Assembly: GCA_905221615.1 (NCBI GenBank)
Contig: CAJNDT010000131.1
Span: forward strand, 1 to 64,000
Length of the DNA: 64,000 nt
Origin: Symbiodinium sp. CCMP2592
Taxonomy: Eukaryota; Sar; Dinophyceae; Suessiales; Symbiodiniaceae
Reading direction: 5' to 3'
This document shows, one piece after another, positions 1 to 31,090 of this stretch. Within the stretch, counting starts at the first letter, position 1. Each line of letters starts with the position of its first letter. The notes below the pieces were generated by a model. It did not search any database. It had not been told where the DNA came from and was given only the letters and a program-made list of their open reading frames with translations. A program made the position numbers and the translations under genes.

Positions 1-952
1 GAACCTCCGAACCTGGCTCCCTTCTGAGGTCCTCGCCCTTGATTCCCGGATCTGGGCCTGGAAGGGACTCCGCTGGGGATGGGGCCTCCTCCGAAAACTT
101 GGTGGTGGCCGGTGAGTTCGCCTCAACCTGGTCACTGGGGACAGGATCTGGATGAGGTGAGGGTTCCTCAACCTGCTCAGGGACCAAAGAAGAGGCTGGC
201 TCAGGTGAGATCTTCTCAACCTGTGTTTTGGAAGCCTTGCCTTCTGTATCCGGCTTGGGTGCCGGTGAGGTAACCTCAACCTGGGAGCTCTGGGCAGGCT
301 CCTGCTTAGGAGAGGTCAGTACCTCTTCCTGCTCATGCTCCGAGGGAGAGGCCGGTTCAGGCGAGACCTTCTCAACCTGGGTTGCGGCGGCCGGGCCTGG
401 ATCACCAGCATCTGTATCCGGCTTGGTTGCCGGTGGAGGAACCTCAGTCTGAGAACTCTGGGCAGGTTTGTGTTTAGGAGAGGTCAGCACCTCATCCTGC
501 TCAGGTCCCAAAGGAGAGGTTGGTTCAGGTGAGACCTGCTCAACCTGAGTTGTGGAGGCTAGGCCTGGTTCATCAGCATTGGAAGGCGAGGGCACCTCAG
601 CCTGCAGATTGGAACCGGAGGCTCTTGGCGAGGCCTCCTCAGCCTGGGCCTCTGTGCGTTGCCGCTTTGGCGGTGGTGGTGGTGGGGTTCGGGCTACCCC
701 CGGCTTGGGTACGGCTTTTGGCCTTGTGATAGGGGCCTCAACCGACCTTGACAAGTTGGGACCAGAAGCCGGAGGTTCCCGGTCGGTACCTGAGTGCTGA
801 CTTTGCCTGGAGTACCTTGATCTCGAAATAGCAGGTTTGCCCTCACTGAAACGATGCTGCAAGAGGGCCTGGTACCTCTGTTCCGTTACCGGGTCCTCGA
901 AAGGGGCATTTTGCCCCTTCCCTGGCTTATTCTTCCCTTTTCCTTTACCCAT
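1..952 (-). CDS. Pro/Glu/Ser-rich repeat protein, 3' end outside window
   Basis: An open frame runs from an ATG at 952 down to the left edge (317 codons, no stop). The N-terminus is basic (MGKGKGKNKPGKG). The rest is rich in Pro, Glu, Ser and Gln, with imperfect repeats of roughly 50-60 residues carrying TQVEKVSPEPAS, EVLTSPK and PAQSSQ. No enzyme domain is visible. The ATG lies 26 bases past the ORF3 stop and directly after a spliced-leader-like motif, so this may be a further cistron of the retroelement block or the start of a separate retroposed transcript. The repeat structure and uninterrupted frame argue for coding. Function is unknown; a disordered scaffold or nucleic-acid-binding protein is a guess only. 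Confidence 0.55.
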   Translation of the reverse strand, partial: MGKGKGKNKPGKGQNAPFEDPVTEQRYQALLQHRFSEGKPAISRSRYSRQSQHSGTDREPPASGPNLSRSVEAPITRPKAVPKPGVARTPPPPPPKRQRTEAQAEEASPRASGSNLQAEVPSPSNADEPGLASTTQVEQVSPEPTSPLGPEQDEVLTSPKHKPAQSSQTEVPPPATKPDTDAGDPGPAAATQVEKVSPEPASPSEHEQEEVLTSPKQEPAQSSQVEVTSPAPKPDTEGKASKTQVEKISPEPASSLVPEQVEEPSPHPDPVPSDQVEANSPATTKFSEEAPSPAESLPGPDPGIKGEDLRREPGSEV

Positions 953-978: not shown

Positions 979-2547
979 TCAGACATGGAGGGTTAGCAAA
1001 ACCAGGTACGAGTAGCACTTAGACCAGGCTACATCTGCAGGCTTGGCGCAAACAGCACCTACCCCATCATCAGTAATGAGCTTGGAGGGGAGAAGTAAAG
1101 TTCGATAATGTCCTGAGGTCGGGGAGTTGCCTAAATGCGAGACCACGGCCTTGGGGTAGTAACGAAGAAGTTCCCCATCCAATCCCTCAAGCACACAAGG
1201 ATCCTCAAAACCAACTGGGTTCTCGAGCCTCCGAAAACCCCCCCCGTTCCCAACAAACCTCAAAAGCTGCAATGCAATCAAAGGCGGGTGAGTGAGGATT
1301 TTCACTTCTCCACCTTGTTGCCAACTTGCCAGGAGTTCCCTCATAGAGACTTCGTGCTCCGGGAGGTGAAGAGGAAGTGGGAAAAGGTTACCCGCGTGGT
1401 GAGGTGCGTTGGGAGCATGAGCTCGCCATGAAACGCAAGAGAGGTCACGGGGAAGCCCCGAAGAAAGGTGCATGAGAAGTTGACAAACATCATGCTGGCT
1501 GTTTGGGGATTCCCATCGACCCTGGCCTGCAACTAATCTCTTCCAAACCAGGGACTGCCACAGCTCGACTTTGCGCTGATCTTTCAACCATCGCAGGATG
1601 CCCTGGATGGGGGATCCAGCAAAGGGGCTGGAGGCATCAAGGAGCAGGTCAACACAAAAGAAACCAACCACCAGAGAATTGGTGTAACAATGGTTGGATG
1701 GATTTTGGAACTTCACCTTGCGAACAATGGAGCCAGCAGCCCTTAAGTCTCCAAGCTCTGGGCTTCCAGGATCCCGGTAGTCGCGGACAGCAGGAGAGGG
1801 AGGCTCAATCCTGACCATGTTCTGCAAGGGAGGGTCATCGGGAGTGAGAGTTTGCAGGGGAGTGGCCTCAACCCTGTTAAGTGGTGTTGCAAAGAAGTTG
1901 CTAAGGTTTTGGGCTTTTGGGAGAGTCTCCTTAGAAAGCTTGCTAGCCTTCTTGGAGGCAGGTAGTGACTCCGGAACCCCTACACCACTTAACAAACCCT
2001 TGGTGAACTTAGTCAGTTTGTTAGTGTGTTTACGGGTCACACACAGGGACTGGAGGAGCCCCGGGACTTTCTTTGCCCGCGCTGGCAAAATGCCTTCACA
2101 CACTTTACACTGCCAAGCTTTGCCTATGGAAACAAGCTGATGGGAAGAGTGACAGGCCAGGTGATCCGGGGGACGACCTTCCCTTCCCAAGCACGGCTGG
2201 GCAAGGACCTGCTGGAACAGTGAAGGAGGGTCTACTTGCTGCAGGTAAAGGCCACATTTCCCACACATGGCTGTGAGGTTCGTAGGGTGCTGACTCCGAA
2301 TTTCCCACTGGTGTCCTAGCGGAGAGACGGTTTGGCTGACGAGTTGCTCAATCTGTTGCCTTTTGTTGAGGGTTGGAGGTTTTGGCTGGCGCTTGCAGAA
2401 AATAGTCTTCTTGTCCTGCGTAGTAATCAAAATCTCCGCCCTCTGGCTAAGTAGCTGGGAAAGGGTGGAAACCAGCGTGTCAACTTGCCTGACTTGCTTT
2501 TTGGCATCAGGGTGCAAAGCTTGCTTGGTCAGCCCTGGATCCAGCAA
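979..2547 (-). CDS. LINE ORF3: zinc-binding region plus ubiquitin-specific-protease-like (C19-type) domain
   Basis: The frame is open from 2565 to a TGA at 979-981. Residues count from a TTG at 2547; the first ATG is residue 94 (2268), just before the zinc region, so entry may be by frameshift from ORF2 or internal initiation. Residues 95-150 hold CGKC, HSSH and CKVC, a likely zinc site. About residues 275-522 resemble a USP deubiquitinase fold: a Cys box NPSNHCYTNS (Cys287), a QHDVCQLL block near 350 matching the USP QQDAQEF-type helix, a His box SGHYRTLL (His480), and a C-terminal CYSYLVLL like the family's closing strand. The family cleaves ubiquitin isopeptide or peptide bonds; whether this copy processes the element's own proteins or host ubiquitin is unknown. 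It overlaps the end of ORF2 by 41 bases. Catalytic Cys and His are both present and the frame is intact. Confidence 0.72.
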   Translation of the reverse strand: MLDPGLTKQALHPDAKKQVRQVDTLVSTLSQLLSQRAEILITTQDKKTIFCKRQPKPPTLNKRQQIEQLVSQTVSPLGHQWEIRSQHPTNLTAMCGKCGLYLQQVDPPSLFQQVLAQPCLGREGRPPDHLACHSSHQLVSIGKAWQCKVCEGILPARAKKVPGLLQSLCVTRKHTNKLTKFTKGLLSGVGVPESLPASKKASKLSKETLPKAQNLSNFFATPLNRVEATPLQTLTPDDPPLQNMVRIEPPSPAVRDYRDPGSPELGDLRAAGSIVRKVKFQNPSNHCYTNSLVVGFFCVDLLLDASSPFAGSPIQGILRWLKDQRKVELWQSLVWKRLVAGQGRWESPNSQHDVCQLLMHLSSGLPRDLSCVSWRAHAPNAPHHAGNLFPLPLHLPEHEVSMRELLASWQQGGEVKILTHPPLIALQLLRFVGNGGGFRRLENPVGFEDPCVLEGLDGELLRYYPKAVVSHLGNSPTSGHYRTLLLPSKLITDDGVGAVCAKPADVAWSKCYSYLVLLTLHV

Positions 2548-2565
2548 GTTGGTCAGCTTCCTGAT
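2500..2565 (-). promoter_or_regulatory. Candidate +1 ribosomal frameshift site between LINE ORF2 and ORF3
   Basis: ORF2 ends GCA CCC TGA (stop 2509-2507). The ORF3 frame is open from 2565, so the two overlap by up to 57 bases. Slipping one base forward at CCC joins the RNase H end directly to the ORF3 frame (next codons GAT GCC AAA). A stop codon after a slippery proline codon is the kind of context used by eukaryotic +1 frameshifts such as antizyme. An ATG overlapping the stop (TGATG) exists but is in the third frame. A simple indel in this copy is the alternative. Confidence 0.4.
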
Positions 2566-5500
2566 TCAAATGCCAACGCCAAACCTCATCTTTTCCAAAC
2601 TTTTCAGCAAATTTTCCTACATCCAAGTGAGCCTTAACCCAATGAAGATGTTGTGGGGATATGTTCTGCCATTGGGGTTTCCAAAACATGGAATGCTTGG
2701 ATGTAACCGCCCTAGCTGCAGCCTGCTTGCAAGCTACCCGAGAATCCGTAGTAAGATCCGTCAGGCCTGGGCAAAGCTCATGGGCCTTAACAATGGCATG
2801 GACCTCCCCATCTAGAACCGTGGCCGGCCGAGGCAAAACCCCGCTCGCAGTTGCAATAACTGTGATACTTTGGCCCGTTTTGCGTGCTAGAATCACAGCC
2901 CATCCAATGGTCCGCAATCTGGGATCGGAAGAAAATTTTCCGCCACTGGCATCAGTACCAATGACAAGATTCGAGTCCCAGGGCTGTGACGGCCAGGTGC
3001 CCGCATACCTATCCTCAGCGTTCTGAAGTGGCGAGGAAACATAGGCAAGAGGGGGAAGGGCTCGCAACCAAAGGCAGGGCGCAGGATGGGACTGACGCAT
3101 TTGTTCAAGATGCCTGGGAAGCTTTGGCTGTCTGGCCCATCTGGGGCAGTCCCACAGCACATGTTGTAGTGTGTTTTCTGAATCAAGGCCCCGATCCTTA
3201 CAGTAAGGGCACTTGGGGTGGCCACCACTTCCCGCATGCACAACTGCACCTTGCCAGATTGACCTGTAGAAGGTCAGACGTTTGGTCTTCTTTAAAGCAA
3301 TGCGGCGATGAATTGTGAAATCTACACCATCCTGAGCTCCTTGACCGCCATGTTGGCCAGAGATGGCTCGCAACCTTTCGCTCTTGATGGTAGACCGAAT
3401 CTTGCGCCGCAGCTCCTGAAAAAGAAAGGGGCTGAAGTCAACGGGCCAGGGTTGGCCATCAATATGCCAGACTTCCGGGGACTGGACATCCCATCCCATA
3501 TCCCTGGCATACTGAATCATGGCCGAAATGGGTCCGGCAACGATTTTCCAAGGGTGAGGCGAAGCCTCCAACCTGGATTTGACCAAGGGCCAGGACCTTT
3601 GAACTTCCTCCCAGATGGAAGGAGAACGGCCAAGAATACGAAGAAAAACTTGCAAATGCTCACAAATAATCTGCTCTCGGGGATCCGGAAATCTGTGGGA
3701 GAACATCTCCAAGACGGTCAGGGTTCCTCCTAGATGTTGGCGTCCTAAGCTACCAGCCAGCACAGCGCGGTGCCATTTCAACCGTTTGGGACTAACACCC
3801 TGTGCCTGATGGCCATAGGTGGCACACGTCATGATGGATCCTCGCACAACCCTCGTGCGTGAACATTGCGAATCAACACCTAAAGCACGAAGGCGCTTGT
3901 GGCGGCCTTGCGCCTTCTTGTGCCTGCCCAGAGAGGTGGCAAGCCTGCGGCGTCTGCCAGCATTGCTGTCAACTCCTAAGTCTTTGGCTAACAGAGTAAT
4001 GCCAGGATCTTGGTCCGAACGCAGACGCGCAAGAACTTGAGAGGTGGCAGAGTCTGAGCAAAGAAACTTGGTTTTTTCCAAGGAAACCTGAAGATTTCGT
4101 TCCGCAAGAGAGTCTCGCAGTATACGAAATGTCTTGAGGGCTTTGTGAGCCGTGTTAGAAGCAGTGGACCCTACCACGTCAGCCGAAATGTCATCCAGCC
4201 ACTGGTCGATGTTGTGAGTGAGGCCAGTGGCCTGAAGGTCCCTGATTGGGACAAACAAAGCCAGTTTCGAAACCACCGGCGCAACAGGGCAACCCTGAAG
4301 CAGCCCAACTGTGGGAATGATTCCCGGCGAAACCGAATTTTCGGCTGAGACAAATCGTGTCCCACCATAAATTTGAAGGGAAAGCTCCAAAAGCAAAGGT
4401 GGGAACTGTAACAGGAGTCCAGTGTCGACTACCGAGGCCCAAACCACACAATCATAGAAACCTTTGATATCAAGAAAGAGTCCTACAAAGTGTTTGGACT
4501 GAGTTCGGGAGGCTTCGGCCCACAGCAACCGGCGGATGCCGATGTCTAAAGATGTTCGACCTGGCACTGCGGCATCCCAAGGAGCCAGGGCCTGGTAGGA
4601 GACCGTCCACTCTTGGATCAGGGACCACCTGGCTCTGCAGTAGTCCCTCCACAAAACGTGAGTTAAAGAGATAGGTCTCTCAGCAGTAGCCGATTTGGGC
4701 AGCATACAAACTTGTGTCAGGAGAAACTGCTGCGGGACTCGGAGGCCTCTTTCGAGCTCCTGATAAAATTCAGCGATGTCCTGAAGCATTGGCCAAGTCA
4801 ATTTCTTGAGAAGGGACTTGCTCCAGCCGTCCGGTCCTGGGGCAGTGACCCTGCCTTTGGAAAACCTTTGTTGCAGCTGTTCCGGGGAAATGGGGCTCAG
4901 GGTAGCGACCTGCTGAGCAGCAAGTTCCCGTAGCTGTCCGCGAGCCTGTTGCTCTGCGTGTGGAAGAGGAGGAAGGTCCTCAACTCTAAGTACGCCTTTC
5001 CAAGTGCGGAGCCATAGTTTGGTTCTGGCCAGGGCGCGAACCTCTGCGGACAGATCCCGAAAGGGACGTGCAGTGGTGATTTCACCTTTTTTGATCGTCT
5101 TGAAAAGGGGGGCCATCCCTTTTTCTTGGGCTCCCTGCAACCACGACCTGTACGATTTGGTCTGGGCATCCTGGTGAACTTTAGAGGCCAGCAGAAATTG
5201 TTCCTGCAATGTTTGCTGGACGGGCTCGGGAACAGCAGCCTGCTCCGAGAGACAGGCCTGGAGCGTAGAAAGTAAAGAAACAGCTTCCTCCGAGTTGCCC
5301 TGCCAGTGGTCCAGGATCTGCGGCAAATACTCCTGGCATTGCTCTCGACGTTTGGGGTGGTCTCCCTGGCACAGAAATTGTACCCGGTGCCAAAAAGCCT
5401 GGCAAGAACCTTCCCATGCGAACTGGGACATGCGAGGAACAGCTGGGAGGAATGCAACTTGGAGTTGGCGACCAATACCCTGGGACGATTGCAAAAGACT

Positions 5501-7276
5501 GTGCTCAACCGAACTGGAAATGGAAGCCAGTCGATTGCTCAGAGGGTCAGCCGAAAAGGTGGTATCCGGCAAGGAGGCGAGGGTCTCCTCAACCTGTATG
5601 TAATCAAGCGGTTCTTCCCTGAAGGAAAGCACAAAGGAGGGAAGCTGTGGAGTAGTGAGCTGGAAAGCGCCCACATTGAGGGCAACTTGGATTGCTGCAT
5701 GTGGCTTGAAAGGAACATCCCAGGAGGCATCAACCCGGAGCAAACCTTCCAGGCAGTGTGATACAGCCAGAAAATCAAGCTCATTGTCACCACAGGTGGC
5801 TTTGTTGGGCCCAATTGGTTCCAGGGACAAACTTTGAAAAATGGCAGTGTCCAACAAATCCTTCAAAGGCGAGTTCCAGTCTCCACCTATCAGGATTGGG
5901 CCCCTCACAGATTGACGAATAGCGCGCAGAGATGCAAGGATGTCAGAGTTGACCGGGGACCCGAAGCCGGAAGAAGACTGGAGGTACAGGCTAACTACTG
6001 TCAAGTCAGCCCCTTGTGTGCGTAGCGTCACCGCCACGTAACCGCAACCTTGGTTGGTATACTGGCCTCGCAAACGGGCTCCCAGGTGGGCTCTAACTAA
6101 AACCCCTACTCCGCCTCTAGAGCTATTCCGTCGGCCCTCCCCAGGGGCTGCGGGCACAAGGAAAGAGTCAAAGCCCATGGCAGCCATAGACGAAATTTCA
6201 GCAACAATTTGGGACTCCAAAAGGTGGTGCTCCTGAATCAAGATAACATCCCCTTGAGCTGAAAACCATTGCTTGACTTCTGGCCTCCAAGAAGTGATGT
6301 TGCAAGATGTGACTCGCATTTGCCTGTGCCCCTGTGGCTGCGATTTGCGCAAAACTTCAAAGCCCCGAGCAACAAGCAAGAGCAAAGTCAAGTCAAAAGA
6401 ACGTTGGAGGGCCAAGATCTCCTGGCACAGCCACCAACCTAAGCTGCCCTGCTCAACCTGATCAAGAAGGTGGCCAACCACCTCTGAAGTTGCTCCCAAC
6501 AGATCTGGGTTCTTGACAGCCTCCCACACCTGGCCTTCGAGTGTGCGCCACTGGCTATGTGGGCTTGCCAAAGGAGGCACCTCAGGTGGCATTTCACAAG
6601 GGGCAAGCTGAGAGAAGGGTACCCTAATGTGTTTGGGCTTTTTCGTTCTACGTCTGGTTTTATTACGTTTGCGTGTGACCCCTACCTCGGCATGGCTCCC
6701 CGACGCCTGTAAGCGAGGAAACTCCTCAACTTGAGATGCCGTTGCTGAGGTTGTGGCCACAAAAGCAGAGATTGGAGAAGCACCGGTCACAGGGACCTCA
6801 TCAAACTCAGTTGTCGAGAAAGATGGGGGCCAGAACTGGGGCCCTGTGATGAGTTGGGTGTCCTGGGACTGCAGCGGGGTGCTGTGGCGCAATCCTTTGG
6901 TAACAGTCTGCCAGGCACTCAGATCCCCACAAGAATCCCATTCTTCCTGACCAGAAAAACCTGGTAACCAAAACTGACCCCATACAAGGTCGTTGTTGCA
7001 AAATTGTGAGTAAGCCTCAACATACCCTGAAACCTTCTCTAAGGACTTGGGCTGCTGAGGTTGGCACTCCCCCAATGAAAACAAATCACTATACAAAGAT
7101 ATGGGTCGCTTAACCGATTCGCCGGAAAACCCGCATGGCTGAGAGCTGGACACAGGGGCACAGGAAACGTCTTGATCAAGCTGAAGGGCAGGCTGAAATG
7201 CACAAGCAGGTTGCCCACTCTCCCCACTCAAAGGACCTTCCTCGAAAACAGACCTAACCTGGACCCCCAGCCCCAC
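2507..7276 (-). CDS. LINE ORF2: AP-type endonuclease, reverse transcriptase, zinc knuckle, RNase H
   Basis: This is the retrotransposition enzyme, about 1589 residues. An N-terminal extension (1-320) has a basic RKRNKTRRRTKK patch near 202-213. The endonuclease-exonuclease-phosphatase domain (about 321-545) shows CNITSW, QEHH, GGVGVLV, GGDWNSP, ELDFLAVS and a final PHAAI; it would nick target DNA. The reverse transcriptase has motif A LFLDIKGFYD (about 930), motif B GLLQGCPVAP and motif C QWLDDIS (catalytic Asp pair about 1028). A CPYC-x12-H-x4-C zinc knuckle lies near 1354. RNase H begins at TDASGG (about 1440) and continues DGEVHAI, TTDSRVA and QEADQLAG, giving a full acidic set. The first codon in this frame after the ORF1 stop is not ATG (GGA GTG), suggesting translation by TAG read-through or reinitiation. 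The frame is intact, so the copy may be young. Confidence 0.93.
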   Translation of the reverse strand: MGLGVQVRSVFEEGPLSGESGQPACAFQPALQLDQDVSCAPVSSSQPCGFSGESVKRPISLYSDLFSLGECQPQQPKSLEKVSGYVEAYSQFCNNDLVWGQFWLPGFSGQEEWDSCGDLSAWQTVTKGLRHSTPLQSQDTQLITGPQFWPPSFSTTEFDEVPVTGASPISAFVATTSATASQVEEFPRLQASGSHAEVGVTRKRNKTRRRTKKPKHIRVPFSQLAPCEMPPEVPPLASPHSQWRTLEGQVWEAVKNPDLLGATSEVVGHLLDQVEQGSLGWWLCQEILALQRSFDLTLLLLVARGFEVLRKSQPQGHRQMRVTSCNITSWRPEVKQWFSAQGDVILIQEHHLLESQIVAEISSMAAMGFDSFLVPAAPGEGRRNSSRGGVGVLVRAHLGARLRGQYTNQGCGYVAVTLRTQGADLTVVSLYLQSSSGFGSPVNSDILASLRAIRQSVRGPILIGGDWNSPLKDLLDTAIFQSLSLEPIGPNKATCGDNELDFLAVSHCLEGLLRVDASWDVPFKPHAAIQVALNVGAFQLTTPQLPSFVLSFREEPLDYIQVEETLASLPDTTFSADPLSNRLASISSSVEHSLLQSSQGIGRQLQVAFLPAVPRMSQFAWEGSCQAFWHRVQFLCQGDHPKRREQCQEYLPQILDHWQGNSEEAVSLLSTLQACLSEQAAVPEPVQQTLQEQFLLASKVHQDAQTKSYRSWLQGAQEKGMAPLFKTIKKGEITTARPFRDLSAEVRALARTKLWLRTWKGVLRVEDLPPLPHAEQQARGQLRELAAQQVATLSPISPEQLQQRFSKGRVTAPGPDGWSKSLLKKLTWPMLQDIAEFYQELERGLRVPQQFLLTQVCMLPKSATAERPISLTHVLWRDYCRARWSLIQEWTVSYQALAPWDAAVPGRTSLDIGIRRLLWAEASRTQSKHFVGLFLDIKGFYDCVVWASVVDTGLLLQFPPLLLELSLQIYGGTRFVSAENSVSPGIIPTVGLLQGCPVAPVVSKLALFVPIRDLQATGLTHNIDQWLDDISADVVGSTASNTAHKALKTFRILRDSLAERNLQVSLEKTKFLCSDSATSQVLARLRSDQDPGITLLAKDLGVDSNAGRRRRLATSLGRHKKAQGRHKRLRALGVDSQCSRTRVVRGSIMTCATYGHQAQGVSPKRLKWHRAVLAGSLGRQHLGGTLTVLEMFSHRFPDPREQIICEHLQVFLRILGRSPSIWEEVQRSWPLVKSRLEASPHPWKIVAGPISAMIQYARDMGWDVQSPEVWHIDGQPWPVDFSPFLFQELRRKIRSTIKSERLRAISGQHGGQGAQDGVDFTIHRRIALKKTKRLTFYRSIWQGAVVHAGSGGHPKCPYCKDRGLDSENTLQHVLWDCPRWARQPKLPRHLEQMRQSHPAPCLWLRALPPLAYVSSPLQNAEDRYAGTWPSQPWDSNLVIGTDASGGKFSSDPRLRTIGWAVILARKTGQSITVIATASGVLPRPATVLDGEVHAIVKAHELCPGLTDLTTDSRVACKQAAARAVTSKHSMFWKPQWQNISPQHLHWVKAHLDVGKFAEKFGKDEVWRWHLNQEADQLAGSRADQASFAP

Positions 7277-7279
7277 TCC

Positions 7280-7282
7280 CTA
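7280..7282 (-). promoter_or_regulatory. In-frame TAG between LINE ORF1 and ORF2 (read-through candidate)
   Basis: ORF1 and ORF2 are in the same reading frame and only this TAG divides them. The minus strand reads CAA GGT TAG GGA GTG GGG CTG. A UAG followed by GGA G and a G-rich stretch resembles known stop-codon read-through contexts in retroelements. No ATG occurs in ORF2 near its start. Confidence 0.5.
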
Positions 7283-8419
7283 ACCTTGCTGAGTGCTACG
7301 GCCTCGGCTCCTGGACCTGGGCTTGGCTTGCTCATGCGGCTCAGTGCCCTTGTGTTCTGGCAGAGTTTGGCTCAGCGGGGCACGGGTCGGAGCCGTCAAA
7401 CCAGGCTGGTTTGTGGCTTCAACTTCCATATTCTGCTGCCCATCATTATGCTTGCCGCGCTGGGCCTCCTCGTAAAGATCCTTCTGCTCCTGGGTCAGGA
7501 CAATTCCAACTTTGGCAAGCGTATCCAGAAGCCCTTCCAAGGGATCATCCTTGCGCGCGGGGTCCTCCAGACCCGAAGCATCAGCACGGAGTGTGGCTTC
7601 CAACTCCGACTGCATAGCCGTGACTTCAGCTTGTTTGCTCTGCAATTCAGATTGGCAAACCTTCATCTTCTCAAGCAGCTCCTGGTAGGTTGCTTTGGCG
7701 CGGTCTATGCGAATCTGTAAGGCAGCAGTTTGCTGGATCATCAGTCGCAAGTCCGTAGTGCTCTGCTTAAAGCGACGAGTTGCAATCTCAATCTGCTGAG
7801 TCTGCGTGGGGGCCGGAGGATCCAGTGCTGCAAGGGCTTGCTGGATCGAAGGCGGCATTGACTCCAAGTGCTTCTTGCAAAGGGCCGCAAGGTCTGTTGG
7901 CTCCGACGCAACCGGCTCAGGGATGCCAGCTTGGCGCATCAGCTTCTTCTGATCATCAGACGCAGAGTCCCACAGGTTCTTAGAGGCTTCGGCCTGCTCG
8001 TCAAGCCCACCCTTTGCCCCGTTGCCTTTTCCAGACTGGAGGCCTGGAGGCGGACTCGGCTGCCGGCCTGCTTGGAAACCTGCCTCGCTCAGTTCCTTCT
8101 GGACCTCTGGGGGAAACTTCTGCCAAAGTGTCGTGACGGCTTTGGAGAGGTTGCCCTCTTGATTCCTAGGCCGTTGGGGGCTTTGGGTGGCACTCTCAGT
8201 GGTTGCGCTTCTGTCCCTGTTCTTCTTGGGACCCCGCGGGCGCAGTCTTTGAGTGACCGGAGCACCCTTTGTCTTCCAGGCGTTGCCACACAGGTTGCAA
8301 AAGGGGTGGTGCTGGACTCTGTCTACGAAAATCCAGCTCTGCTTACCCGCCCTAGAGCAGTGAGGACAGACGATGTAGGGCGTTGCTGCACCCTTGGCAC
8401 CGTTTTTTCCCCAAGTCAT
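7280..8419 (-). CDS. LINE ORF1: zinc-finger, coiled-coil nucleic-acid-binding protein
   Basis: The ATG at 8419 gives 379 residues (MTWGKNGAKG start); the frame is open further upstream but without a nearby ATG. A treble-clef-like zinc site lies at C18-x2-C21, His37/38 and C41-x2-C44 (CPHC and CNLC). A Pro/Gln-rich middle is followed by a long heptad-rich segment (about 210-290, with QIEIATRRFKQ and ELLEKMKVCQSELQSKQAE) expected to form a coiled coil. The C-terminus is Arg/Ser-rich (RSRSRGRST). By analogy with LINE ORF1 proteins it should bind element RNA and oligomerise. It ends at the TAG that precedes ORF2 in the same frame. Confidence 0.75.
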   Translation of the reverse strand: MTWGKNGAKGAATPYIVCPHCSRAGKQSWIFVDRVQHHPFCNLCGNAWKTKGAPVTQRLRPRGPKKNRDRSATTESATQSPQRPRNQEGNLSKAVTTLWQKFPPEVQKELSEAGFQAGRQPSPPPGLQSGKGNGAKGGLDEQAEASKNLWDSASDDQKKLMRQAGIPEPVASEPTDLAALCKKHLESMPPSIQQALAALDPPAPTQTQQIEIATRRFKQSTTDLRLMIQQTAALQIRIDRAKATYQELLEKMKVCQSELQSKQAEVTAMQSELEATLRADASGLEDPARKDDPLEGLLDTLAKVGIVLTQEQKDLYEEAQRGKHNDGQQNMEVEATNQPGLTAPTRAPLSQTLPEHKGTEPHEQAKPRSRSRGRSTQQG

Positions 8420-8624
8420 GGCGAGTAAGCTCAACCTGTGACAACGGCTGAGCAAGTGTTCGGCTTGAAAGCACGGAAGTATGGCGCTACCCCGCCCCAA
8501 CCCTTGCTGGACAGCCAGCCTACGACCTTTAAGGTTGCGGTTTGGGTTCCAGTCAGGGCCTTTAGCAAAAGTAGGGACTCCAGGCTAAAAGGCCACGTCG
8601 GCACTGCAAAGTCTGAGCCGAAAA
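8420..8624 (-). other. LINE 5' untranslated leader
   Basis: About 205 bases lie between the spliced-leader relic and the ORF1 ATG. They are GC-rich and without an upstream ATG on the minus strand in the ORF1 frame. Directly after the relic comes TTTTCGGCTCAG, which itself resembles the end of the leader and could be an older, decayed second relic. Confidence 0.4.
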
Positions 8625-8643
8625 CTTGAGCCAAAAAAAATGG
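8625..8643 (-). other. Dinoflagellate spliced-leader relic at LINE 5' end
   Basis: The minus strand reads CCATTTTTTTTGGCTCAAG. The last 12 bases are identical to the 3' end of the dinoflagellate trans-spliced leader and the preceding CCA also matches; the T run is eight instead of four. Such relics arise when a trans-spliced mRNA is reverse transcribed and reinserted. It lies 12 bases after the copia pol stop. A plain polypyrimidine-AG splice acceptor is an alternative reading. Confidence 0.65.
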
Positions 8644-8648
8644 GATTT

Positions 8649-11600
8649 TCACACCCCCTCTTGGACTGATGCGGCACCTAGTGTCTTTTGAGCACACTTT
8701 ACAAGCTCTAGACCTAGCTTTTCAGGATAGAACCCTGAATCTTTTAATTCCACCTGTACATGTTCATGCACTTGGTCACATTCCCTTTTAGGAAACACTT
8801 TGACCCAGCGTTTACTGTTCGTGGCAAAGTACCACCGTTTAAACACACAGTCGTACGCACAGCGGTCTACCACAATACCCTCAGAAAGCCCCAATTCTGA
8901 AGCAACCTGAAGATACCGCGGGTCCTTCCAGAGGTCGTTCTGCAGAGGCCACTCTTGAGTCAACAACAAGCGTTCACTCCGAGCAACCGGTTTCAACAAA
9001 CCTTCAAGAAGTTCCCAAGCACGCTGATGCAACTTCTTCTTCTCTTCCCACTTCTCTTGACTGTACTTGCGCCACCCGCGGTAACGCAAACGACACCCAG
9101 TGGTACAGGGAGTGGAGATATGGCAGTAGATCTTCGTCTTCAAGCCACAACTCAACACAGAAAACAACTCCTTCAGAAAACACTGCGTCTGCTCAGAACA
9201 AAAGTCAAGCTTTTCAGTGACGCCCACATAGGCAATCTCAAGCTTCTCACATGCCTTCTGTAAGGCACTTTCTTCCTGGCAGAACAGTTCAACGACCACA
9301 AAGGTGACCTGGTTCTTCGCCACAGCTTCACACAGTGAAACGTACTCCTCAGGAACAAAAGAACGGTTTACCGGCTCTTCTGCAGTCAGGCGTTCCAGCT
9401 CAAACTCACCCAACTCGTCTTCAAAAGAAACCAAACCGGTTACCTCGTAGAGGTTGTCCAGCTGCTCCTGAAAAACCATACTCTTGGTCAGGCCGTCGGA
9501 GGCATTATATGCTCCGGCCACAAACTCGAGGATCACTCTCCCCGACTGAACCATCTGCTGCAGGAAAGCACACCGCAACTCCAGGTGACGAACCCTTCTC
9601 AAGAGTCCCTCCATTGAAGCAATCGCCTTTGCCGACTCCGAATCGGTACAAATCCGGATCCAAAAGCTTCCAGTATCATCCTCAGGCAATCCCTCCAAAA
9701 ACGACTGTTGAAGCAAACCTGCAAACAAAGCCTCTTTCACAGTCTCTACCAAAGCACTCAATTCAGCCTCGGCGCTGCTCAGGGCCACAACCGTCTGTTT
9801 ACGGCTAAAACTCTTCAGCAGGTTGCACTGCCAGCAGATAATCGCCCCACTCACAGAGGGCAAATTCCAGCTAGCATCACAGAAACAATCGATCACGCGC
9901 GTACTTTCCGAAGGGCGATAGTTCACCCACTGTGCCGGGATCCGCTGAACCCGATTCCCAAGCGTGAGAATCCAACGCAGCACAGCTCGAATACACGCTT
10001 CACTCCTGGAGTCTGGGTTGCTCTGGCTCCGGGCCAGAAAACCTACAACAAACTGCAAATCAGCTCTTGTCAAAGCTAGCCACGACAGTTTGCCCAACAC
10101 GCGCCGGTAGCGCTGATAGGCCTCATGCGTGATCGGGGTGGATTCCAGACTGGTCCACAAACGCTCAAGCTTGGGGAGTTTCGCTCCCTGCGTGATTTGA
10201 TACTCTTCCGCACAGCTATGGAGCATCCCGGGTTTGAGTCCGAAGTACAAGTCTCCGGTCTTCCTCTGATAAATGTTTCTCCCAAGGAAGGAGATCACCG
10301 ATTTCTCTCCCGGTTGAAGCGTTCCCGTGCGCTTCATCTTGAACACTTTACTCAGTTCCTCAAACACTTTCTCAGCTACACTCGCAACCGTGCTGAAAAC
10401 CAAGATGTCATCTACATAGGCCAACACCAACACAATGGCATCCTTGCCTTTCTCCTTGATCACCTTGCGATACACAGTGCTGTCAGCAGTAACAAAGAAA
10501 CCAAGTTTTCTCAGTGTTTCTCCTAGCTCACGAAACCAAGCCAAAGGCCCAATCCGCAAACCATTCATGGCACGCTTCAGCAGACAATGCACACGTTCAC
10601 CTGACACTGTCCTACAGTTCTCCGGCAGCTTCACCACCTCAGTAGAAAACAGCTTAGCCTGCATGAAGGCCACAGAAATATCTCCCGAAATCACCTTCCC
10701 TCCGAAATGCGCATACATCCCCAACAGACACCTCACAGACTCTAAGGTAGTCGTAGGAGAATAGATGCCATCAGCTAAAGCAGAGGTGGGCCCTTTAAAG
10801 TCACGCACAACCAAACGGCAGCGCACACGCTTGTGCCCGTCCTTGTAGTGCAACACCCACCTGGTGGAAAGCACTCTCCTCTTAGCTTCCCGCACAAGGC
10901 GAAACGCCTCCTTCTCAGACACAACCTGGCACACACCAAAGTGGTCCAGTTCCTCCATTTCAAGACGCATCCCTTCCCCAAGTTTCTTCTCCTCAAGAAC
11001 CTCCCCAGTATACTCATCAGCAGCCCCAGAAGGAACCTCAACCTTCACCTTGGACCCTCCAAACTTCAAAGTAAACTCCAACTTGGCCGCCCTAGACCCT
11101 TTAGCGTCCTTTGCCGCGAACACAACCTCAGGTCTAGAACACATGGAGTACAAAGCATGGTCCTCCAGCCAGCTGATCGCCACCTCCATGGGATCATCAT
11201 CGTCGGCCGGCTGCATGTCCACATCGTACAAAGGTGGGGCCTCGTTCTCTCCTGCAGGGGGACCTTCAGGGAGTACCTCTTCCTCCTCAACTGGAGAAGG
11301 ATCATAGTCCATAAGCTCATCCTCCAAGAGCTCAGCTGGAGCCTCCGGCTCCGCACTCCCCCTCTCAACTAGATTACCCTTAGGCTCTCCAGGCTGAAAG
11401 GCTTCGGGGGGCTTCAGGTCTAAGGAAACAGGACGCTCTAAAACGTTGTCTTGCCTAGAAGGGGCACCCGAATCAGCGGCTTGTACCACCAACTCCTCAG
11501 GATACAGGTAAGGCTGGTCCGGCCGAAAGGCCGACATCACCTCGACCTCATCAGGCCGATCAAGAGGGAGCACACGCACTCCTCCACCATTGGGCTTAGC

Positions 11601-12518
11601 AGGCCCTAGGTACATACACGGGATGAGGCGGCGGCCTCGATTCTCAGGCTTCTGCTTCGCAGGTTTGGCAAAACCCTTGCACCCAAAAGGAAACGTCTTC
11701 GTTACTGGAAGATGTTGGCGTCTCAGCCTTTCAATTGGCGTGGTTTGCGACTTCGAGGTCGCATGCAGGTTCCTTGTCCTAGCAACATATCTCAAAGCTT
11801 CCTTGTACAACAAACCACCCAGCCGGAGCTTCTTCTCCAGCGTAGTTTCTAGCGTCAACCAATTCACCCAGAAGGCTTCCTTCAAGTGTCGCACACCTAC
11901 CTCCACAAGCCCTTTCGACTGCGGCCGTCCTTTCGGCACCGCGTCTATGTGCAACGAGAGGCCTGGGTATGAGCGGTCTTTTCCCACCTTGTTCCAAAGC
12001 GAGATCAGAGACGCTTCATTATCCATCCTCAGCACAACATGCTGACCTTGAATACCTGCGGCGGCCAGCTCGGCGTTTATACACCGTGCAACATGCCCTG
12101 GATCACCTCCTGTGGGGTAGGGCACAGCGAAACAATATCCGCTAAGCTCGTGCACCACAATGCACACTCTCAGGTCTTTCGTAAAGAACAAGAAGTCGCT
12201 TAAGAAGCTTGCTTGCGGAATTGAAGGATCTTTGCGCCTTCGCGCTGGAATCACTCCTCGACTGGACACACACAAAGAACACGACGGCAGATAGGGCTGA
12301 TGGCCCCGAGCAACGTGCTCCTGATACTCTTTATCCTCCAGTGGAACATGAAGTTCCCCTTCTTCAGAAATATCCCCAGCATCTTCAGCAGCAGGCTCGG
12401 CTTCAACAACCGGTGCTGGAGCTGAGGCTTGGGCGGGTTCCGCCTGCCTTGGTGGATCACCATCCGGAATCAACTCTTCATCGGAAATCGTCACTTCCAC
12501 CGGAAGTCCACGCATCAT
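8649..12518 (-). CDS. Ty1/copia pol: integrase, reverse transcriptase, RNase H, methyltransferase-like tail
   Basis: The ATG at 12518 gives 1289 residues; the frame is open further upstream (to 14045) but that part is low-complexity. The integrase zinc site is His68/His73 with Cys80-x2-Cys83; the catalytic triad is Asp108 (SDFLFF), Asp166 (RMDNEAS) and Glu206 (GLVEVGV). The RT carries LAYVDDILVF (about 699-708), the copia form of the box. RNase H shows CDASW, SSAEAELSAL, TDSESAKAI (about 956) and NASDGLTKSM (about 1004). The last ~220 residues are extra: VVVELFCQEESALQKACEKL (about 1075), HISTPCTTGC (about 1131) and LTQEWPLQNDLW (about 1185) resemble motifs I, IV and VI of cytosine-C5 methyltransferases, in degenerate form. 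The order IN-RT-RH is diagnostic of Ty1/copia. The stop is 12 bases from a leader relic, with no 3' LTR. Confidence 0.9.
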   Translation of the reverse strand: MMRGLPVEVTISDEELIPDGDPPRQAEPAQASAPAPVVEAEPAAEDAGDISEEGELHVPLEDKEYQEHVARGHQPYLPSCSLCVSSRGVIPARRRKDPSIPQASFLSDFLFFTKDLRVCIVVHELSGYCFAVPYPTGGDPGHVARCINAELAAAGIQGQHVVLRMDNEASLISLWNKVGKDRSYPGLSLHIDAVPKGRPQSKGLVEVGVRHLKEAFWVNWLTLETTLEKKLRLGGLLYKEALRYVARTRNLHATSKSQTTPIERLRRQHLPVTKTFPFGCKGFAKPAKQKPENRGRRLIPCMYLGPAKPNGGGVRVLPLDRPDEVEVMSAFRPDQPYLYPEELVVQAADSGAPSRQDNVLERPVSLDLKPPEAFQPGEPKGNLVERGSAEPEAPAELLEDELMDYDPSPVEEEEVLPEGPPAGENEAPPLYDVDMQPADDDDPMEVAISWLEDHALYSMCSRPEVVFAAKDAKGSRAAKLEFTLKFGGSKVKVEVPSGAADEYTGEVLEEKKLGEGMRLEMEELDHFGVCQVVSEKEAFRLVREAKRRVLSTRWVLHYKDGHKRVRCRLVVRDFKGPTSALADGIYSPTTTLESVRCLLGMYAHFGGKVISGDISVAFMQAKLFSTEVVKLPENCRTVSGERVHCLLKRAMNGLRIGPLAWFRELGETLRKLGFFVTADSTVYRKVIKEKGKDAIVLVLAYVDDILVFSTVASVAEKVFEELSKVFKMKRTGTLQPGEKSVISFLGRNIYQRKTGDLYFGLKPGMLHSCAEEYQITQGAKLPKLERLWTSLESTPITHEAYQRYRRVLGKLSWLALTRADLQFVVGFLARSQSNPDSRSEACIRAVLRWILTLGNRVQRIPAQWVNYRPSESTRVIDCFCDASWNLPSVSGAIICWQCNLLKSFSRKQTVVALSSAEAELSALVETVKEALFAGLLQQSFLEGLPEDDTGSFWIRICTDSESAKAIASMEGLLRRVRHLELRCAFLQQMVQSGRVILEFVAGAYNASDGLTKSMVFQEQLDNLYEVTGLVSFEDELGEFELERLTAEEPVNRSFVPEEYVSLCEAVAKNQVTFVVVELFCQEESALQKACEKLEIAYVGVTEKLDFCSEQTQCFLKELFSVLSCGLKTKIYCHISTPCTTGCRLRYRGWRKYSQEKWEEKKKLHQRAWELLEGLLKPVARSERLLLTQEWPLQNDLWKDPRYLQVASELGLSEGIVVDRCAYDCVFKRWYFATNSKRWVKVFPKRECDQVHEHVQVELKDSGFYPEKLGLELVKCAQKTLGAASVQEGV

Positions 12519-13201
12519 GCACAAACGGTGTGGCGGCTCAGACACTTTCTCATCACAGCCACCTTTCACCTTCAAAGGCTCCGACCTTAGGTCATCCCAG
12601 CCACAAGCACAACACAACCACAAGCCACGCACACGCTCCAAGCCACAACAGCACAAGGACCGCAGACGCCGCACACCAACCAGCACAAAACACTCCACGG
12701 CTTCAGAGGCTCTCGGTGCTTTGCTGGCTCTCGGTGCTTCGGGGGCTCTCGGTGCTTTGCTGGCTTTCGGTGCTTTGCTGGCTTTCGGTGCTTCGGGGAC
12801 TTTCGGTGCTTTGCTGAATCTCGGTGCCTCGGTGACTTCGGACGTTTTGGGGGCTTGGGCTCTCGGGGCTTCTTGCGCGTACCCTGGCAAACACACTCGC
12901 ACAGAGGGCCCCAAGGCTTTAAGTAGAGCCTGAGCCTTTCTCACAAAACCCTCGCAAAACACTTGCAGCACGTCACTGGGCCTCCAGGCTTCTGTGGGGG
13001 TCTGGGCCTCACACTCACTTGCAAAACCCTTCCCAAAAACCCGTAAAACCCTATAGCGCTGCAACCTCAGAACTTCACCCTTTCTACCGAGCACACCCGG
13101 ACACTCACCACACTCAAAGCAACCTACTCTCACAGAAGATCGCTTCCACTTCCTCTTCAGACGCATCCTTTTGCACCCTGCGGTTGGTCGCACGGTAGGT
13201 C
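12519..13201. other. Spacer with Ala/Ser/Pro-coding minisatellite between copia ORFs
   Basis: No ATG-initiated reading frame is convincing here. At about 12700-12845 a 15-base minisatellite (CTCGGTGCTTTGCTGG-like) repeats; in the pol frame it would read KAPRASEAP-type repeats upstream of the pol ATG. The rest (12850-13190) is rich in short CCCTCGCAAAACAC-like motifs similar to those at 14890-15180. It may be leader sequence for the pol mRNA or a low-complexity N-terminal extension. Confidence 0.45.
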
Positions 13202-14836
13202 TCAGATAGAGACAGAGCGGGAGCGCCTCTTGGAGCCGCGTCCATGTTGCGTTGACCCTTGGTCTGGAGGGCCATACGAACCACCGAGTACCCGTTGTGT
13301 TGGGCGGATCGGTGCCTTGCTCTTTGGATCGGTCGGCGGGGCTTGCAGCAAAAGCGATCTGTGGTATCCCAGAGGCGGCTGCGGTCCCAGCAAAAACGAT
13401 CCTTGGTACCCCAACGGCGGGGGCGGTAACGGCGGCAGCGGCACTGCTGGCGCTGCTGGCGCTGGCAAGGCCGGCATAGCCTTCACAGGCACCATCTTCG
13501 GAGGCGCCGCCGGCCTCACTGGCATCGCCTTCACTGGCACCAAAGCAGGATCCACTCCAGGGGTCTCCGGTGCCGCTGGCACGGCTCTTTTCGAAGGCTT
13601 CGGTGGCGAGGGAGAAACTTTGGCCGGCGACCTGGACGGTTTCACTTTGGGCGGCGGTGGCCCATCCGGAATCACAATAACGGCCGGCTTCAAGGTCACA
13701 GCCGGCCTGGTCACTGTCTTTGGCTTTGGAGCCAAACGAGGCTTTCCACGTGGATCTGAGGGCGCCGGTGTCATCGGCACCTCCTCCTCGGCAGCAGCTG
13801 GTGCCACCTCTTCCACCACAGCCTCGGCCGCGGCTTCCACAACCGCTTCGGCAGCGGCGTCCACAACCGCTTCGACAGCGGCCTTCTTCTTCTTTCGCTT
13901 TTTCTTCGCAGGTACAGGAACAGCTTCTTGGGCATCGACCGTGGTTTCCGCAGTCCCCACTGCCACAAGGAGGTCCACTGCACCCTGCTCCGGCTCCTGG
14001 GCCGGCCGTCCTTCGGATCTTTCGTCCAAGCGGCTTTGCACCCATTCCAGGGCACCTTCGGCAAGCGCCTTGCCCTTCGCTACAGCACGGGCGTGCTGCT
14101 TCTTTCTCACAAGCCGCTTGGCCTTCACGACCTTCTTCTCCGTCCGCACCACCTGCATCAGCTGGCGATTGTAGCCCATCGTCACTGGACCACCATCCGC
14201 TGGCTTCCGCTCGGGCTTCCGGGCCTTCTTCTTCGAGGTGGGCGCGACAAACAAATGTGGATTCAGAAAAGTAGGGTCCACAGTGTCCGCCTCGGCTTCC
14301 TCGGCTGCTGCAGCCTCCTTCAAGGCCTTCGTGGCCTTCTTTGCCGCACCACGGACCTCCTTCAAGGCCTTCGTGGCTTCCTTTGTCGCACGAGATGCCC
14401 GCTTCTTCTTGCGCTTGGGCACTTTCTCGACGGCTTTCTCTGCAGCATCCAGGGCCTCAGCAACGTCCGTGGCCACACCAGACTCGGGGCGCCATTTGCC
14501 CCAGCCTTCTTCCTCTTCTTCCTCCAGCTTTGACGGCAGCGGTGATTTCTGCATTGGCGATTTTGGCTGTGAAGGCACTGCCATTTTGTGCCACTCGCGA
14601 GAAATTTTGGTGAGCTCGTCGTGCTCCTCCATCATTCTCCGCTCGGATTCCTCCCGAGCCGTGCTTTCTATCACCGATGCGACCGTCACCACATCGGATC
14701 GTCGGGCAGACGCAGCGCTCTTCATAGCGGTGAGGTCCGCCATCCTCTGAGCCATAATTGCCGCCTGCGACGACCTTTCTTCCTCGTCCGTCGAGGATAC
14801 CGGGGGCTCCGGCTGCTTCTTTCGTCGACGCCCCAT
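13202..14836 (-). CDS. Copia-internal extra ORF: Lys/Ala/Pro-rich protein of unknown function
   Basis: The ATG at 14836 gives 544 residues (MGRRRKKQPEPP). Residues 15-75 look helical (AQRMADLTAMKSAASARR, then an ESERRMMEEHDEL coiled-coil-like stretch). An acidic LEEEEEEGW follows, then Lys/Ala-rich repeats, KKKRKKKKAA clusters that resemble nuclear localisation signals, Ala/Val/Glu repeats (EAVVEAAAEAVVE) and a Pro-rich C-terminus (PPLPPPPLGYQG) ending in an SR-like tail. It shares KKQHARAVA with the gag protein. It sits between gag-protease and integrase-RT, in a different frame from both, and overlaps the end of the gag frame. No known retroelement domain is recognised; a chromatin- or RNA-binding role is a guess. 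Confidence 0.6.
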   Translation of the reverse strand: MGRRRKKQPEPPVSSTDEEERSSQAAIMAQRMADLTAMKSAASARRSDVVTVASVIESTAREESERRMMEEHDELTKISREWHKMAVPSQPKSPMQKSPLPSKLEEEEEEGWGKWRPESGVATDVAEALDAAEKAVEKVPKRKKKRASRATKEATKALKEVRGAAKKATKALKEAAAAEEAEADTVDPTFLNPHLFVAPTSKKKARKPERKPADGGPVTMGYNRQLMQVVRTEKKVVKAKRLVRKKQHARAVAKGKALAEGALEWVQSRLDERSEGRPAQEPEQGAVDLLVAVGTAETTVDAQEAVPVPAKKKRKKKKAAVEAVVDAAAEAVVEAAAEAVVEEVAPAAAEEEVPMTPAPSDPRGKPRLAPKPKTVTRPAVTLKPAVIVIPDGPPPPKVKPSRSPAKVSPSPPKPSKRAVPAAPETPGVDPALVPVKAMPVRPAAPPKMVPVKAMPALPAPAAPAVPLPPLPPPPLGYQGSFLLGPQPPLGYHRSLLLQAPPTDPKSKAPIRPTQRVLGGSYGPPDQGSTQHGRGSKRRSRSVSI

Positions 14837-30196: not shown

Positions 30197-31090
30197 TCAC
30201 ACTCGATATGAAGTGCACTGACTGTGAGCCGTACTCAAGAAAAGCATAGTGGCAATGTACGCGACTTCCGCTATGCAAAACACTGTCTGGCTCCTGCTCG
30301 AAGGCTGAGTTTCACAAACTTTCTCCCAACAGATGCCAACCAGCATGCAGAAGCCGGCAATGGTTGTCCCCAGGCCAGCTCCCACATTGACTAAATCAGC
30401 ATCCGCAGCGACCACGCTCAGAGAACATGCTACATCCTCGCCGTTGTGGCCGATGCCAGCACAGCCCTCACAAGTTCCGCCCCTCTTCTGGACGGAGTCT
30501 GCCTGCTTGACGAACCCGTTGACGCAAAACACGTCTAAGACGCACAGAACAGAAGCATTGAAGATGAGACTTCTGCTGAAAGCAATCTCCGGGGTTGTAT
30601 GTTTGATGAAGAGTCCATGTAAGTAGACATCACCAGCTTGTAAGCACCAGCAGGCCGTCACAGCGCCGAGCGCCCCAAAGTACTCGTTGAGGAAGCTGCC
30701 AACGCAAGGCTTCTCATTCCCAGTAGGCCTTGCCTTATCTTGGGACTGCGCCTTGACACTGTCGAACGTACCACTGGCCTCAACGTCCAAGGTGGGCGTC
30801 AGGATCTTGACAAAGATCTGCATGCCGCCTCGCATGTGCGGCGCCAAGTGAAGGGTCGATTCCTTCTGCAGGTTGTAATCCGAAAGAGTACGGCCGCACT
30901 CAAACTGCCTGCCAGCAAAGATCAGGTGCTGCTGGTCGGGCGGGATGCCTGCCTTAATTTGGGACTTCGCATTGCCTTTGTCGAACGTGCCACTGGCCTC
31001 AACGTCCAACGTAATCGTCTTGCCTGTCAGGGTCTTGTCAAAGATCTGCATGCCGCCTCGCAAGCGCGGCACCAGGCGAAGGCGTGCCTT
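30197..31090 (-). pseudogene. Degenerate polyubiquitin-like frame with hydrophobic tail
   Basis: The frame is open from 31090 to 30197 and begins inside a ubiquitin C-terminus (RLRGG) without an ATG. An ATG at 31051 starts a full 76-residue ubiquitin-length unit (31051-30824): [18 protein letters not shown], then [13 protein letters not shown] and a degraded PHMRGG end. Changes include V5D, K27N, R42H and K48R; K6, K11, K29, K33 and K63 remain. A second unit ([18 protein letters not shown]) lacks GKTI and breaks off after about 33 residues. The remaining ~170 residues are unrelated, with hydrophobic stretches (e.g. [19 protein letters not shown]). Ubiquitin is normally almost invariant, so this is most likely a decayed retrocopy whose frame happens to stay open. 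Confidence 0.75.

Follow-up and report, generated by a model that had tools for sequence, protein, structure and literature searches.

Does a retrotransposon of Symbiodinium sp. CCMP2592 encode a ubiquitin-specific protease (USP) and, if so, what would the element do with it? The question arises at the start of contig CAJNDT010000131.1 (C131), of which we analysed the first 64,000 nucleotides (the window). A long interspersed nuclear element (LINE) runs here on the minus strand, from about position 8635 down past the contig start. An earlier note, made from the sequence alone, had described an open reading frame (ORF) at 979-2547 (-) that resembles a USP (peptidase C19) and overlaps the RNase H end of the LINE ORF2. 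Our analysis supports a LINE with a USP-like (C19-like) domain, whose catalytic residues are intact and which recurs in other copies. Fairly probably, this frame represents the C-terminal portion of a LINE of the Symbiodinium genome that was active recently and is of the type with an apurinic/apyrimidinic endonuclease (APE).

The junction with ORF2

The window does hold a 522-residue open frame at 979-2547 (-), and its start overlaps the stop of a second frame at 2507-7276 (-). The separate, overlapping ORF3 read from this arrangement was not borne out; in relatives, the USP-like domain is the C-terminal domain of ORF2. We fetched 30 copies of the element from the assembly (1,098,105,373 bases), the window copy among them. 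These are the highest-scoring by protein similarity of at least 83 scored matches, and counts over the match list are lower bounds. The frame is uninterrupted across the junction in 27 of the 30. In the window copy, AAGC is doubled (AAGCAAGC, 2519-2526 (-)), which shifts the frame and splits ORF2, while the other 29 copies carry a single AAGC. Of the other two broken copies, L022 has gained and L029 has lost 1 nt near the junction. At least 30 of the at least 83 scored matches fall within a frame 2,098 residues long or longer, one of them with a TAG inside the match. The unbroken ORF2 of L031 measures 2,098 residues, and P0004, one of two protein clusters from elsewhere (the other is P0003), is a single fused protein of 2,073 residues. 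The window copy is broken at the duplication and would not yield the whole protein in one frame.

Separate translation of an ORF3, from its own start or via a +1 frameshift at CCC-TGA, would suit the overlapping frames of the window copy, and CCC-TGA-T is similar to known +1 slippery stops. However, programmed frameshifting is ruled out because the 27 unbroken copies read through without it. Moreover, the break is a 4-nt duplication specific to one copy, and P0004 is fused; the continuous frames already refute an ORF3 for the family. We give this alternative next to no credence.

The USP-like domain and its relatives

As delimited by profile searches, alignment and predicted structure, the domain spans residues 275-522 of the 522-residue frame (982-1725 (-)), corresponding to about residues 1851-2098 of an unbroken ORF2; its stop codon lies at 979-981 in the window. 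Alignment confirmed the three boxes noticed earlier, and their order: NPSNHCYTNS (1675-1704 (-)), with C287 as the nucleophile and N282 at the oxyanion position, QHDVCQLL (1474-1497 (-)) and SGHYRTLL (1093-1116 (-)), with H480. D493-D494 occupies the third catalytic position (1066-1071 (-); N-D in P0003). The catalytic Cys, His and Asp/Asn and the oxyanion Asn are found in order in 30 of 30 copies, as well as in P0003 and P0004. Like cellular USPs (C19), the domain has a Cys box with Asn at -5, a PP-hydrophobic-RF strand, an H-x-G...GHY box that pairs with USP7 in the profile alignment, a Q-x-D box and [DN]-D. Unlike them, it stays below the Pfam gathering score in the window copy, shows no CxxC pairs by eye, measures about 250 residues and is fused to ORF2. 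The pattern N-x4-CYxN[ST] ... Q-x-D ... GHY ... [ND]D was matched by none of 3,078,000 domain shuffles and a looser motif pattern by two, the pattern having been set after the sequence had been seen. In profile searches, USPs made up 38 of 39 rows (E 5.4e-5); the nearest solved relatives are USPs, with USP7 the nearest.

Linkage of ORF2 to this domain is not unique to the window copy, since it recurs in other genome copies and in the two clusters from elsewhere. The last 499 residues of the unbroken ORF2 (L031), used as a query, recovered P0003 (1,541 residues, 172 members, identity 63%, coverage 97%) and P0004 (490 members, identity 52%, coverage 100%). A search with the reverse transcriptase (RT) returned 25 proteins. 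Among the 27 proteins in hand, the Cys box is present only in P0003 and P0004; several of the others are truncated gene models, which say nothing on the presence of the domain. NCBIfam and Rfam searches gave nothing relevant, tblastn against phages gave no match, and no relative was found in viral contigs searched with the 522-residue frame and queries A2 and A4, or in genome contigs searched with query A4.

The zinc-binding region that the earlier note had placed in front of the protease boxes was only partly upheld. The Cys-rich stretch (2002-2490 (-); putatively zinc-type) is real, with C95, C98, H136, C147 and C150 kept in 30 of 30 copies, but it is not part of the USP. Sequence comparison detects it at E<=1e-10 in 16 relatives that lack the USP (a near-identical set of 8 included) and that end 44-359 residues past it. 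It is an ordinary C-terminal region common to this LINE group. In the USP lineage, it is followed by A-Q/R-N-L-S-N-F-F, then a linker, then the USP. The window form of this peptide, AQNLSNFF (1891-1914 (-)), is a PCNA-interacting-protein (PIP)-like peptide. PIP-like peptides also occur in the last 55 residues of 7 of the 8 USP-less relatives inspected, as Q-x-x-L-x(1,2)-F, QPKLAQFF or T-x-S-V-L-H-F-F; P0024 has none. The LINE group as a whole may therefore bind PCNA. The seven carriers are P0008, P0010, P0011, P0012, P0013, P0022 and P0023 (e.g. QPKLAQFF, QRTLRF, QTKLNF). In the same genome, one element copy, copy A, is directly followed downstream by a relative frame that lacks the USP. In an RT tree, from which P0001, P0002, P0006, P0007 and P0027 were left out for holding too little of the region, the USP carriers and P0005 form one clade (support 100/99). 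Altogether, the pattern fits one C-terminal gain of the USP, although the USP-less relatives, known from proteins alone, might have a USP in a separate ORF further downstream.

Across lineages, identity reaches 59-68% in the USP-like domain, 63% in the endonuclease (one pair), 63-65% in RNase H, 62-68% in the Cys-rich region and 74-76% in the RT, as against 25-38% in the linker. By this measure, the USP-like domain is shown to be as constrained as most of the enzymatic domains; the linker evolves fast. Within the 30 copies, the ratio of nonsynonymous to synonymous polymorphism (pN/pS; codons more than one base off the commonest codon and residues 1-19 omitted) is lowest in the Cys-rich region (0.06), followed by the USP-like domain (0.19) and the linker (0.35). 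Residues 20-522 are free of stops; variation affects 19 of the 248 residues of the domain and spares the catalytic ones. Mean pairwise divergence over the 522-residue frame from codon 21 is 1.5%, and activity is therefore recent.

Several points weigh against an active USP gained once by this lineage. The 30 copies were picked as best protein matches, a choice biased towards low pN/pS in all three regions and towards intact residues, although the contrast between regions should suffer less from it. USPs dominate the profile matches, but the window domain alone scores 21.5 bits with Pfam UCH, below the gathering score of 23.9 (best E over three members, 1.5e-4); for this reason, we file it as USP-like and not as a formal C19 member. 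An hhalign comparison with three viral USPs gave a probability of 9% and E 0.0037, from very shallow profiles. On structure, a USP fold was obtained with these viral USPs in the alignment, and no usable model without them. The AlphaFold model made without them had a predicted local distance difference test (pLDDT) score of 32.0 and no match in the PDB at E<=0.001 by fold search. With them, mean pLDDT was only 56.8, and the Foldseek superpositions were loose, with template modelling (TM) scores by query of 0.29-0.56 and root-mean-square deviations mostly of 8-12 A. Because the first model fails, the better one may borrow its fold from the viral proteins. The domain is missing from gene models P0001 and P0002, and P0005, labelled USP-less, makes the label require two changes on the tree, a figure equalled in 38 of 500 shuffles, with a long-branch warning; this label is uninformative, since P0005 ends inside the RT.

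Some of these points would also suit a chance or decayed sequence merely resembling a USP: the single-sequence USP score is weak (E 0.0012), a PDB search with the single domain sequence found no match, and the first structure model failed. On the other hand, the identity across lineages with the USP boxes kept, the dominance of USPs in the profile search and the absence of pattern matches in shuffles make this very unlikely.

Structure and mobility of the element

In unbroken copies, ORF2 reads in the order endonuclease, RT, RNase H, Cys-rich region, PIP-like peptide, linker and USP-like domain. Up to its frame break (2507-7276 (-)), the window ORF2 contains an RT above the Pfam gathering score (RVT_1, E 1.1e-9, 38.7 bits vs 29.6). 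Exo_endo_phos (gathering score 24.5 bits) gave 24.1 bits in the window (E 3.5e-5), 23.4 in L031 and 29.0 in P0004. The acidic residues of RNase H were recognised by eye in the alignment; the Pfam search of the window ORF2 gave no RNase H match.

Upstream, the open frame of ORF1 (7280-8500 (-)) has 406 residues from a TTG, with the first ATG at about 8419, and no Pfam family reaches its gathering score in it. A lone in-frame TAG marks its boundary with ORF2 (7280-7282 (-)). In all four copies examined, the window copy and three fetched ones, ORF1 and ORF2 share one frame with this single TAG between them (e.g. L031:2201-2203, L033:1998-2000). No Met occurs in ORF2 before residue 180 in copy A or before residue 230 in the other three. 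The in-frame TAG and the late Met make stop-codon read-through or an unusual ORF2 start likely. A third ORF, beginning MGKGKGK and proline-rich, is cut by the contig end in the window (2-952 (-)). In another copy, copy B (C1001), it begins 26 nt past the ORF2 stop and encodes 639 residues with a lysine/proline-rich start and an internal 168-nt tandem repeat (L033:8324-9901 plus L034:1-339); no Pfam family was found in the pieces of this copy.

Copy B spans 10,080 bp and has no poly-A at its end. The same sequence of at least 13 bp (CTCTTTGTAGCAA) stands on either side of it, a target-site duplication (TSD) seen in the one copy examined; the 3' end of the window copy is missing. In C4701, C5084, C922 and C4948, same-strand copies are spaced 10,055-10,087 bases apart, about one element length. 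The head-to-tail joint was read in C4701, where it includes some 17 nt that are unmatched.

At its 5' end, the window copy begins with a partial spliced-leader-like sequence (CCCATTTTTTTTGGCTCAAG, 8625-8644 (-)), from which the LINE body continues to base 1. Remains of the 3' end of the dinoflagellate spliced leader (DinoSL) comprise 12 nt in the window copy (score 24) and, in copy A, 18 of 19 nt with a single gap (score 33), and copy B scores 23; the maximum among 2,000 windows of 100 nt inside copy A was 21. A DinoSL pattern scan of the window with up to 3 mismatches found no match because only 12 nt are kept contiguously. These remains at the 5' ends of three copies suggest that the element RNA was probably trans-spliced before reverse transcription. 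The spliced-leader-like stretch may also have matched the target by microhomology. At 8625-8649 of the window and at L031:180-330, the same Copia-like 3' end, with CCCATTTT and GGCTCAAG after it, adjoins two different sequences.

Beside the LINE, a Copia-like long terminal repeat element was recognised by eye from its frames (8649-17462 (-)), with integrase/RT-like (8649-14045) and gag-like (14457-17462) parts. The window also contains a decayed polyubiquitin-like open frame (30197-31072 (-), by eye), and, over 29455-58415, seven copies of a dispersed repeat of about 130 nt and many TTTAGGG-type arrays.

Precedents and possible function

No LINE with a USP-type domain was found in the literature searched, most subscription journals and Repbase lying outside its reach. 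A classification of papain-like peptidases (PMC10318531) contains no word beginning 'transpos', and a paper on retrotransposon accessory domains (PMC6338049) no word beginning 'ubiquitin'. SymbioLINE-Dnmt elements are Symbiodinium LINEs with TSDs, no poly-A and a DNA methyltransferase in ORF1 (PMC5890265). Our element is like them in its TSD without poly-A (here in one copy) and in its acquired accessory enzyme, but the USP-like domain lies at the end of ORF2; Pfam matched no methyltransferase in ORF1 or the third ORF. These captured methyltransferases provide a direct precedent for the capture of a domain. NeSL and Utopia LINEs, which are restriction-like-endonuclease elements, have an N-terminal Ulp1-like protease (PMC4640811). 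They share with our element a LINE protein carrying a ubiquitin/SUMO-type cysteine protease, whereas here this is USP-type, C-terminal and linked to an APE-type endonuclease. Ginger1, with an OTU or Ulp1 domain, and a transposase of Trichomonas that carries Peptidase C19 likewise fuse a transposition enzyme to a ubiquitin/SUMO hydrolase, but are DNA transposons; a role of these domains in repair signalling has been suggested (PMC2836005). Finally, human LINE-1 requires PCNA binding through a PIP box of ORF2p (PMC10830420); the human peptide precedes the RT, whereas the putative one here is near the C-terminus.

We think it reasonably likely that the USP-like domain is an active deubiquitinase, which a single LINE lineage acquired through fusion at the C-terminus and which acts in cis on the insertion complex. 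The domain would strip ubiquitin from the ORF2 protein or from host factors present at the nick, with PCNA a candidate through the PIP-like peptide, and the complex would thereby be neither degraded nor diverted by DNA-damage signalling. A more specific version, in which a captured active USP, fused to ORF2 behind a PCNA-binding peptide, edits ubiquitin on PCNA or on itself at the nick and so disarms host control in cis, is offered tentatively and may well be wrong.

Alternatively, a domain with the USP fold could act on a ubiquitin-like modifier (SUMO, NEDD8, URM1) or as a non-catalytic ubiquitin reader. Its divergence from cellular USPs, the sub-threshold Pfam score of the window domain and the lack, by eye, of the CxxC pairs that the three viral USPs have would fit, and SUMO-type Ulp1 domains are known in transposons (PMC4640811, PMC2836005). 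However, the catalytic residues kept in all 30 copies and in two other lineages argue against a pure pseudo-enzyme, and the nearest solved relatives by profile are USPs, which leaves this alternative rather unlikely.

Retroelement proteases commonly process polyproteins, and the shared frame with its single TAG and the late first Met of ORF2 would give such an enzyme a substrate in an ORF1-ORF2 read-through product. Yet USPs cut after the C-terminus of ubiquitin, Pfam detected nothing ubiquitin-like in the three ORFs of the element, and USP-less relatives exist. A processing protease for the products of the element thus seems quite improbable. No direct sign of self-cleavage was found in the sequence, and ubiquitin removal is the favoured activity.

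Proteases of the ubiquitin type have been described from DNA transposons (PMC2836005), and some nematode LINEs carry one of the Ulp1 kind (PMC4640811). For an APE-type LINE, a USP-type domain would be a novel acquisition; LINEs with captured DNA methyltransferases are already on record for the genus (PMC5890265). If active, the domain would provide a clean, one-Cys, point-mutable handle on the ways in which ubiquitin signalling favours or impedes target-primed reverse transcription, and it might account for some of the spread of these LINEs in Symbiodinium.
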